Assembly (NCBI GenBank): GCA_024639325.1
Contig: JAHEIO010000005.1
Coordinates: 1 to 64,000, forward strand
Length of the DNA: 64,000 nucleotides
Direction: 5' to 3'
Source of the DNA: Gammaproteobacteria bacterium
Lineage (GTDB): Bacteria; Pseudomonadota; Gammaproteobacteria; Arenicellales; JAANXG01
The notes beneath the pieces are model-generated. The model saw only the letters and a program-made list of their open reading frames with translations. It did not search any database and had not been told where the DNA came from. The translations under genes and the position numbers were made by a program. This document shows, piece after piece, positions 13,856-16,768 of this stretch (position 1 is its first letter; every line of letters begins with the position of its first letter).

Positions 13856-13875
13856 TACTGTATTTGTTGACAGCA
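13856..13875 (+). promoter_or_regulatory. LexA-like box TACTGTATTTGTTGACAGCA overlapping TTGACA hexamer
   Basis: CTGT-N8-ACAG core, about 43 bp upstream of the ATPase start; 15/20 match to the SOS consensus. Confidence 0.4.
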
Positions 13876-13918
13876 AACCGAAGCCGGTCGAGATTTTCGC
13901 ACAAGCAGGATCTGAGAC

Positions 13919-16768
13919 ATGTACCAGACCTTCTATCACCTGAGTGCCGATCCGTTTAGGCTCACGCCGGACCCCCGTTTCTGTTTTCATCATCATGCTT
14001 ACGCCAGAGCGTGGGCGTACTTGCACTATGCGCTGCAGGTCGGCGAAGGCTTTACCATCGTGACGGGGCAGCCGGGAACCGGCAAGACGACTTTGATCGA
14101 AGCTCTGATCGAAGAGCTCAACCACTTCGAGGACATCAAGTACAGCAAATCCGTGACTTTCATGAGTCACAAGCTGATCGGTACCAAGCTCGACGCCATG
14201 GACCTGCTTCGTTCCGTGGCTTATTCATTCGGCGTCGACTCGGAAACCTCCGACAGATTCACACTCATCCACCGGCTCGAGCAATATCTGATCGGTCAGT
14301 GCCGAAATAACCGCCGAGTGTTACTCCTCATCGATGAAGCGCATGGGATTTCCGACACGGCGCTTGAGGAATTGCGGCTGCTGGCGGACCTGCAATCACA
14401 GAGAAGGCCGCTGCTCCAGATGTTCCTGATCGGCCAGGAAGGTCTGCTACGTATTCTGGACACGCCGGTTCTGGAACAATTTCAGCAGCGGGTTCTATCC
14501 GCGTGCCATCTCGCGAATCTCAGTCCCGAGGAAACCAGAGATTTCATCGAACATCGTCTGCGGTGCGCGAACTGGAAGGGCGATCCAGTAATAAGCGGCG
14601 AGGCGATTTCGTCCATACATTTGCACAGCCGAGGATTACCTAGGCACATCAACAAGATCTGCAGCCGCTTGATGTTACGCGGCGACTCGGAGGAGAAGCA
14701 CGTTCTCGGCCAGGAGGACGTCATGGCTATCGTTGAAGAGCTGGACGATGAGCAGCTCTCGCCCTTGTGTCAAGAGCAGTTTGAAAACGAAGGCCTCGCC
14801 CTAACCGGGACCTCCGCTGCCGGTTGTGTTTCCGACAGGTTTGACGATCTGGCAGTCAAGGCGTCAGCAGAAGAGAAAACCCGCGAACTGCGAACGTCTG
14901 CGGAACCTTGCGCCGGTCGTTCCCGCCACCCGCAGCAACGTGACATGGTGTATGCCCCGGTCTATTCGGATTTCGATGTTCAAGCCAAGTCCCAGTTCAT
15001 GCACGAGTATGTCGAGAGCCCACGGCCTCGGCAGAGACCAAGTCGAACCAGAAGACGTATCAAGGACAGGTTGCGGGTCTTGCGCTTGTTGCGGGTGGCA
15101 TGGTTTTTCGCTGTCAAAAGAGGGGGGCAGCTATGGCAGCGGATAGATCTCGCAGCGTACGCCTCCCGCTTCGGGAAGGGGTTTCGTGAAAGCGTGTCGC
15201 GCGGTGCGAATTTCCTGCGCGATAAACAATGGTCGCAGAAAATGTTCGCGTACGGTGGCGCATTCGTGTCGCGTGGTCGCGGTCTGGTGCGGACGCAGTT
15301 CCTGCAGCTCGAGACCAGGCGTACCGCGCCCACGGTGGCGGCAGCGCTGATCCTTTGCATTGTGGCGCTCTGGTTCGTTGGGACGAAAACCTGGCGAGAT
15401 GCCGCAGATCCTGCCGACACGCTCGTGGGGCAGGAGGAATCGTTGATGGAAGAACTCGAACGACACCCCACTGCGGATGAATCGAATGAACAGAATGGAG
15501 GGGAACTGGCTATCTCAGACCGGCGGAGCAGTTCTGCAACGGAACAACAGCCGGTGGACCAATTGGTAGCGTCGTATCTACAAACAGCAGACTACTCTGG
15601 TGGAGACCCGTTTGCGGCTGCGGTCGCCGCAGCGATGGCTGCGGACGCGGGGGCTGTTATCAGCGCCAAGGTATCGTACGATCTCGATCCGGACGGCGCC
15701 CACGAAACGAGCATCGAAATCGGTATCCCCGATGTCACCGTCGAGTTGCGGGATCTAAGCGGCGAAGCTGTCGCCTCCAGCGTGACGGACAGTGAGGGTA
15801 TCTATCGCTTCGAAGACGTAGCGGAAGGCGACTATGTGAGGGTGGTTACGGATTTCGGCCGTGTCCTTTTCGGGAAAAGCATGATTAAAGGTCTCATGGA
15901 GCAGCCGATCACGGTCTATGAGGCGCCCGATGGGGCTCCCGTGGTGGTATGGAAAGATTTGGCAGCTGACGCGCCGCAGTCGAACCACGATAACGTCGCT
16001 GTAACCGCGAGCCAGGGCGATCGAAACAGAAGTGACGAGGCGGAATCTTCGGGCGCGCGTCGATTCGTGCCCAGCGTGGAGATCAGTTTGGATACGGCAC
16101 TGCCGTGGCAGCAGGGATTTGATGCGCTGACGAGCGTCGACTCCGACAACCGCGCAATGCAATATGTATTGCTGCAACCGAGTGACGAAGTCGCTGCTTT
16201 CGTAGCGACACCGCGGGGCGATGATGCGGGCTCGACGATGTCGGCCATTGATAAGGAATCTGCCCCCGTTACCTTGGCGGAGCCAAACCAGGTATCCAAG
16301 GACACCGGCGGTTCAGCGGAGCCGGTACAGGAGGTAGTTCCAAAACTCTTGTCGGCGGCAGAGTTGGCTCTTGAACAGGATCGCCTGTCGATCCCAGGCG
16401 ACGACAGTGCTTTTTACTATTACAAGAAGATCCTCGAGGTCGACCCCGCCAGCGCAGAGGCGTCGGCGGGGATGGACAGAATCGTGGAGCGCTACATCGA
16501 GTTGGCCGAGAACGCATTCGAACTCGAGTCGGATGAAGAGGCGCGCCGCTACATTGCGCGCGGCCTCAGAGTACAACCGGGTCATCAGGGCCTGTTGGCG
16601 TTACAGGAGCGAGGCGCGGTGGTAGTGCTGGCCGAAGTCACGAGTGAAGTGCCCGAGGTCGCACCCGAGCCGCAGCCGCAAGGATTCATGCAGAAGCTGA
16701 AGACGCATCTGGGCGGAAATGGTAATGAACCCGCGATGCCGGCTACAGGTGATGTGGACGGGCGCTAG
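13919..16768 (+). CDS. Multidomain membrane ATPase: ExeA/PEP-CTERM-locus-type AAA ATPase + TM + SdrD/Cna-B-like domain + TPR-like region
   Basis: MYQTFYHLSADPFRLTPDPRF, Walker A GQPGTGKTT, Walker B RVLLLIDEAH; TM VAAALILCIVALWFVG; VSYDLDPDGAHETSIEIGIPDVTVELRDLSGEAVASSVTDSEGIYRFEDVAEGDYVRV; AFYYYKKILEVDPASAEASAGMDRIVERYIELAENAFELESDEEARRYIARGLRVQPGHQG. Confidence 0.85.
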   Translation: MYQTFYHLSADPFRLTPDPRFCFHHHAYARAWAYLHYALQVGEGFTIVTGQPGTGKTTLIEALIEELNHFEDIKYSKSVTFMSHKLIGTKLDAMDLLRSVAYSFGVDSETSDRFTLIHRLEQYLIGQCRNNRRVLLLIDEAHGISDTALEELRLLADLQSQRRPLLQMFLIGQEGLLRILDTPVLEQFQQRVLSACHLANLSPEETRDFIEHRLRCANWKGDPVISGEAISSIHLHSRGLPRHINKICSRLMLRGDSEEKHVLGQEDVMAIVEELDDEQLSPLCQEQFENEGLALTGTSAAGCVSDRFDDLAVKASAEEKTRELRTSAEPCAGRSRHPQQRDMVYAPVYSDFDVQAKSQFMHEYVESPRPRQRPSRTRRRIKDRLRVLRLLRVAWFFAVKRGGQLWQRIDLAAYASRFGKGFRESVSRGANFLRDKQWSQKMFAYGGAFVSRGRGLVRTQFLQLETRRTAPTVAAALILCIVALWFVGTKTWRDAADPADTLVGQEESLMEELERHPTADESNEQNGGELAISDRRSSSATEQQPVDQLVASYLQTADYSGGDPFAAAVAAAMAADAGAVISAKVSYDLDPDGAHETSIEIGIPDVTVELRDLSGEAVASSVTDSEGIYRFEDVAEGDYVRVVTDFGRVLFGKSMIKGLMEQPITVYEAPDGAPVVVWKDLAADAPQSNHDNVAVTASQGDRNRSDEAESSGARRFVPSVEISLDTALPWQQGFDALTSVDSDNRAMQYVLLQPSDEVAAFVATPRGDDAGSTMSAIDKESAPVTLAEPNQVSKDTGGSAEPVQEVVPKLLSAAELALEQDRLSIPGDDSAFYYYKKILEVDPASAEASAGMDRIVERYIELAENAFELESDEEARRYIARGLRVQPGHQGLLALQERGAVVVLAEVTSEVPEVAPEPQPQGFMQKLKTHLGGNGNEPAMPATGDVDGR

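Follow-up and report, generated by a model that had tools for sequence, protein, structure and literature searches.

ExeA combines a cytoplasmic AAA ATPase, a single transmembrane (TM) helix and a periplasmic peptidoglycan-binding domain, and assembly of the ExeD secretin requires ExeA together with ExeB (PMC4098917). The arrangement of an ATPase, a TM helix and a periplasmic tail is the known ground plan of ExeA/GspA, and the tails are exchangeable. A second related group is formed by the XrtA/PEP-CTERM ATPases (TIGR03015). PrsK, PrsR and PrsT have been linked to the XrtA/PEP-CTERM system (Haft et al. 2006, PMC1569441). Here we describe a gene from the window, which is the whole 64-kb stretch of DNA that was analysed. 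Its product belongs to a known class of ATPases for envelope assembly, of which it represents a rare variant: the chassis is already known, and the arm composed of SdrD_B and TPR is rare.

Modules of the fusion protein

The coordinates of the gene and of its surroundings are collected in Table 1. The original prediction described a fusion of an ATPase, a TM helix, an SdrD/CnaB domain and a TPR-like end. All of these modules are encoded in a single uninterrupted ORF, and the ATPase, SdrD_B and TPR modules are kept in full-length homologues from the sister species of the same genus (G001), where the gene occupies the same genomic site, and from another genus (G010), where it lies in a different genomic place. 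The gene start had to be corrected, as position 13856 belongs to the promoter box. The fusion is real. A misassembled tail on a short stand-alone ATPase was rejected on account of the full-length homologues in three genomes and at two genomic sites, and a pseudogene was rejected on account of the open frame and the overall dN/dS of 0.35.

Table 1. Features of the fusion gene and its locus (window positions; G000 is the genome that contains the window)
Feature	Position	Strand	Evidence
tRNA-Pro(GGG), left border of inserted segment	13370..13446	+	ARAGORN and Rfam
Inserted segment, tRNA-Pro to surE, in G000 and G001 only	13447..17169	+	Intact junction in relatives
LexA-like box TACTGTATTTGTTGACAGCA, overlapping TTGACA (13867-13872), 43 bp before ATG	13856..13875	+	PWM 18.0 bits
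Fusion gene, 949 aa (AAA ATPase, basic linker, TM, SdrD_B, TPR-like tail)	13919..16768	+	Full-length orthologues G001 92%, G010 42% identical
ExeA/XrtA-type AAA ATPase domain, aa 1-278	13919..14752	+	TIGR03015 269.3 bits (cutoff 324.5), AAA_22 79.5 bits
Walker A GQPGTGKTT, aa 50-58	14066..14092	+	Translation; GxPGTGK kept in P0003-P0006
Long basic cytoplasmic linker (predicted), aa 284-466, fast-evolving	14768..15316	+	25% identity to G010; 19 K/R vs 5 D/E in aa 380-466
Single TM helix, aa 470-488	15326..15382	+	Hydropathy peak 2.3, sole strong peak
SdrD_B domain with DLDPDG loop, aa 584-640	15668..15838	+	PF17210 above cutoff; PDB profile match; Foldseek
TPR-like C-terminal domain, aa 806-900	16334..16618	+	G010 67% identical; dN/dS; helices; phmmer to consensus TPR chains

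The N-terminal domain matches TIGR03015 from end to end (E 3.4e-80). The scores of the three fusion proteins (269.3, 261.7 and 285.8 bits) do not reach the curated cutoff; short relatives score 372-384 bits. The window protein differs from the TIGR03015 ATPases also by its 670-aa extension, its position outside an exosortase locus and a genome in which no exosortase was detected. The ATPases of the PEP-CTERM type, described in the original prediction as usually short and stand-alone, are not always so: a close relative is present in 90 of the 369 sampled genomes of the class, and many open frames span 450-1240 aa, several of them with a TM helix and an OmpA-like or TPR tail.

A single strong hydropathy peak marks the expected TM helix. 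The positive charges prevail on its N-terminal side (19 K/R against 5 D/E) and the negative ones on its C-terminal side (5 against 18). According to the charge rule, this asymmetry implies that the N-terminus should be cytoplasmic and the tail periplasmic.

The SdrD_B domain was recognised by PF17210 with 38.4-40.5 bits in the window protein and with 39.3 bits in the G010 homologue, against a gathering score of 29.7. A profile search of the PDB with this domain led to the solved SdrD structure 10ps (E 1.7e-11). The AlphaFold2 model of the domain is modest (pLDDT 54), and Foldseek aligned it with UafA, SdrD and CnaB2 (probability 1.00, E 1e-4 to 5e-4), in agreement with the Cna-B-type beta fold that had been claimed. 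The DLDPDG loop suggests that the domain may bind calcium. No SdrD_B match was found in the viral contigs searched.

The TPR-like end lies below the Pfam cutoffs (TPR_19, 13.5 bits against 25). It is similar by phmmer to solved consensus TPR chains in the PDB and is helical in the structure model, with pLDDT 65-81 in the best blocks, and its assignment as TPR-like could be upheld. The model of the whole tail, built from three sequences, was uninformative outside the TPR part (pLDDT 35). Pfam detected no peptidoglycan-binding domain in the tail, only SdrD_B and weak related beta and TPR matches. The anchoring step of the OmpA-tailed and ExeA proteins would consequently be missing or replaced. 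A Ser/Thr kinase of the family-mate G004 (L187:921-2426) ends in the same TPR tail, alignable with that of the window protein, and a kinase encoded in the window's own genome matched it less strongly. That at least one Ser/Thr kinase shares this tail agrees with a docking module of general use.

The original prediction regarded the tail as an outside adhesion or scaffold domain wired to a cytoplasmic ATPase. The SdrD_B domain is indeed an adhesin repeat, and in the B domains of the Gram-positive adhesins SdrD and UafA the same single Cna-B-like beta domain occurs. In addition, a giant frame of 6324 codons in the same genome (L190; G000:C290:45000-61570) encodes SdrD-like repeats 41-48% identical to the SdrD_B domain of the window protein; it is a possible source of this domain. 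However, the domain forms a cell-wall stalk in the adhesins and just one unit of a presumably periplasmic arm in the window protein. There is one inner-membrane TM helix and no signal peptide before the ATPase, and neither a sortase motif (LPXTG) nor a PEP-CTERM end was found in the fusion protein. The signal peptide, ligand-binding A domain and LPXTG anchor that characterise MSCRAMMs are lacking, and Pfam and NCBIfam returned no such domains. As the tail should be periplasmic and these surface signals are missing, an outside adhesin is unsupported, and we regard it as highly improbable.

Relatives of the protein and probable origin of its arm

The dN/dS values relative to the sister species are 0.24 for the ATPase, 0.29 for SdrD_B and 0.20 for the TPR domain. 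The larger linkers range from 0.30 to 0.64, and two of them (0.47 and 0.64) lie above the values of the domains. Compared with G010, the dN/dS of the TPR domain is 0.09; identity amounts to 66-67% in the ATPase and TPR domains, against 17-25% in the linkers. Judged by these rates, constraint acts on the modules and not on the linkers.

Close homologues of the ATPase were found in 6 of the 109 genomes of the order, and only three of these six carry the fusion. Among 84,980 species genomes, full-length matches were obtained only in G001 and G010, in a scan that started from two peptides of the N-terminus and was therefore blind to relatives with a diverged start. A tree of the ATPase domain was calculated with 66 rows under LG+C20. 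In this tree, the three fusion proteins and three gammaproteobacterial ATPase-TM-TPR proteins without SdrD_B form one clade (99/92), which is nested in a group of 36 rows (100/97) that also contains OmpA-tailed proteins and proteins with shorter tails. The window's genome encodes a GspA-like ATPase as well, which belongs to a different part of the tree.

The ATPase-TM-TPR proteins from other Gammaproteobacteria (L141, L144 and L145) share with the window protein the ATPase clade, the TM helix and a C-terminal TPR with the alignable motif RL..P..(D/N)(N/D)(S/N)A(F/Y)xY. They differ from it in their length of 659-800 aa and in having no SdrD_B according to Pfam. Since the fusion proteins group with TPR-tailed proteins devoid of SdrD_B, an older ATPase-TM-TPR protein probably acquired this domain: on the simplest interpretation, the TPR tail came first, and SdrD_B was inserted in the arm later. 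Alternatively, SdrD_B may have been lost in the other branch.

The OmpA-tailed XrtA-type ATPases encoded beside PrsK/PrsR in G004, G009 and G011 come from the same organism family. Their ATPase domains are 49-51% identical to that of the window protein, and they likewise have one periplasmic arm. Unlike that of the window protein, this arm terminates in a peptidoglycan-binding domain of the OmpA-like type. Relatives adjoin PrsK, PrsR or an exosortase-associated acyltransferase in G004 and G009 (OmpA-tailed) as well as in Nitrococcus and Neptunomonas. In Neptunomonas (L062-L064), two divergent XrtA-type ATPases adjoin each other, and PrsK and PrsR are close by in N. japonica.

The position in the ATPase tree and the relatives in PrsK/PrsR loci could mean that the protein is a relocated member of the XrtA/PEP-CTERM system, still serving PEP-CTERM sorting or polysaccharide export. 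At 11 kb upstream of the fusion gene, the window encodes a PEP-CTERM protein of 359 aa that looks intact (1499-2578; 31.4 bits, cutoff 20.7), in line with this explanation. Against it, the TIGR03015 score remains at 269 against the cutoff of 324.5, and the window's genome, which is 95.6% complete, contains no exosortase by TIGR02602 or PF09721 and no PrsK over cutoff. With the same two models, exosortases were detected in G010, G008 and G004. PrsR-type sigma-54 sites were discarded as a candidate, as the matches occur at chance level and none lies near the fusion gene. The gene is found outside a PrsK/PrsR/EPS locus and is flanked by tRNA-Pro and the surE-pcm-nlpD-rpoS block. The sequence comparison establishes kinship with the XrtA ATPases. 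Since the gene lies away from these loci and neither model detected an exosortase in its genome, the comparison establishes kinship only and not membership in a working PEP-CTERM system, and we consider such membership unlikely.

Genomic site and LexA-like box

In G003, G004, G006, G010 and G011, the genes merR, tRNA-Pro, surE and pcm are contiguous, and about 30-290 nt separate tRNA-Pro from surE; the comparison left out G002, in which the block was not found beside surE. In G000 and G001, tRNA-Pro and surE are at least 3.7 kb apart, and the interval holds the fusion gene alone. No partner gene adjoins it in the window, its neighbours being the tRNA gene and the surE block. The G010 fusion gene lies about 730 bp past the 3′ half of a tRNA gene that is truncated by the end of the contig (28.5 bits with the Rfam tRNA model, against a cutoff of 29; anticodon read by eye as CAT), and the stretch that follows it is weakly similar to Y2 transposases (20.7 against a cutoff of 20.9). 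The two tRNA-proximal sites, noticed post hoc, are suggestive of a mobile islet that carries the fusion gene. Integration of the tRNA type with an att repeat was rejected, as no repeat of the tRNA end was found downstream and no integrase was seen. In GC content (54-60%), the segment does not stand out from its surroundings, and Rfam reported only tRNA-Pro at the locus. Directly 3′ of the ATPase stop codon, the sister species has a short element (L031:9986-10273) that is bounded by 31-bp inverted ends of 97% similarity and is masked as N in part.

The predicted CTGT-N8-ACAG box and the TTGACA hexamer are both present upstream of the gene. The box was scored with a matrix built from 16 SOS boxes of E. 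coli, and the ranking covered the CTGT-N8-ACAG sites of the genome and the retrieved loci. The 4.69-Mb genome contains 28 copies of the core, of which four lie in the window, and the box ranks ninth among the 28 sites. In the 64-kb window it is third, behind the boxes of dnaE2 (29.7 bits) and of the imuB region (26.1 bits), and stands above the local noise. Under an order-3 Markov null, 2.7 sites of at least 18.0 bits are expected per 4.69 Mb. At such a frequency, a box of this strength directly before any one gene would seem unlikely to arise by chance, although this box was chosen after the fact and scored against E. coli sites. The original prediction had cautioned that the bare 8-base core could arise by chance; the box proved stronger than such a core, yet it is degraded in comparison with real SOS boxes (23.6-29.7 bits). 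The strong boxes of the window precede an imuB-like region (IMS domain; 48121-50281) and the error-prone DNA polymerase gene dnaE2 (54198-57330), which together make up a mutasome of the LexA type distributed over 6 kb.

The strength of the box, its overlap with TTGACA shortly before the start codon and the LexA encoded in the genome, with a 23.6-bit box at the lexA promoter, would fit an SOS-induced envelope ATPase, which LexA represses through this box and by which DNA damage triggers remodelling of the envelope or matrix. Conservation speaks against it. The sister box TACTGTATTTGTTGTCAGCA reads TCAG instead of ACAG at its end and scores 14.7 bits, for which the Markov null predicts about 19 sites per genome, and its TTGACA is also broken. 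For the G010 homologue, 775 bp of upstream sequence were available, and no LexA-like box was found in them. A sigma-70 promoter scan called no promoter at the window box. SOS control is possible at the genus level, but as an account of the protein it appears doubtful. That a small mobile gene beside tRNA genes links the signalling of DNA damage to an envelope complex driven by ATP, via an exchangeable periplasmic arm, is a speculative combination to which we give little credence.

Proposed role in the cell envelope

We consider it fairly probable that the protein is a membrane-anchored ExeA/GspA-like AAA ATPase of the TPR-tailed XrtA-type branch, the periplasmic SdrD_B-TPR arm of which holds or repositions an envelope complex. 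Of the proteins related to it in layout, ExeA has been studied best. The window protein resembles ExeA/GspA in the cytoplasmic AAA domain, the single TM helix and the periplasmic domain, its topology being taken from the charge rule alone. It differs from them by the peptidoglycan-binding domain, which was not detected and would be missing or replaced, by the lack of an adjoining ExeB/GspB gene and by its different branch in the ATPase tree.

Beyond the domain assignment, we infer every step of the mechanism by analogy. The N-terminal ATPase would oligomerise and hydrolyse ATP in the cytoplasm, and the single TM helix would carry the signal and transmit force across the inner membrane. SdrD_B may act as a stiff, perhaps calcium-stabilised, spacer in the periplasmic arm, and the TPR end as a docking site. 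By analogy with ExeA, ATP would be used to assemble, position or gate the envelope complex held or repositioned by the arm. The client would most likely be an exopolysaccharide or protein export complex. This role is supported by the computed domain matches, the modules conserved in three genomes and the constraint on them, the branch in the ATPase tree, the OmpA-tailed relatives in PrsK/PrsR loci and the layout of ExeA. The absence of an adjoining partner gene, of a peptidoglycan-binding domain and of an exosortase or PrsK over cutoff, together with the pLDDT of 35 for the tail model, argues against it.

The type II secretion genes that begin 8 kb downstream (window 25092-34806; gspD at 25092 and gspF at 28663 were identified, with further small ORFs in the same order) could be taken as the client. 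The ExeA-like layout and the presence of gspD and gspF in the same window would agree with an assembly factor for this secretion system. However, a separate GspA-like ATPase gene, followed by a GspB-like ORF (by eye), is present on contig C97 of the same genome, and the C97 ATPase, not the window protein, groups with other GspA-like proteins. Housekeeping genes intervene between the fusion gene and the secretion genes, and relatives lack the segment at this position. The ATPase tree and the second GspA-like protein led us to reject this function, which we regard as improbable.

The XrtA/ExeA-type ATPases constitute a modular chassis in Gammaproteobacteria, in which the motor is kept and the arm is exchanged (OmpA-like, TPR, or SdrD_B with TPR). 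Arms with recognisable binding domains make the search for partners directly testable.
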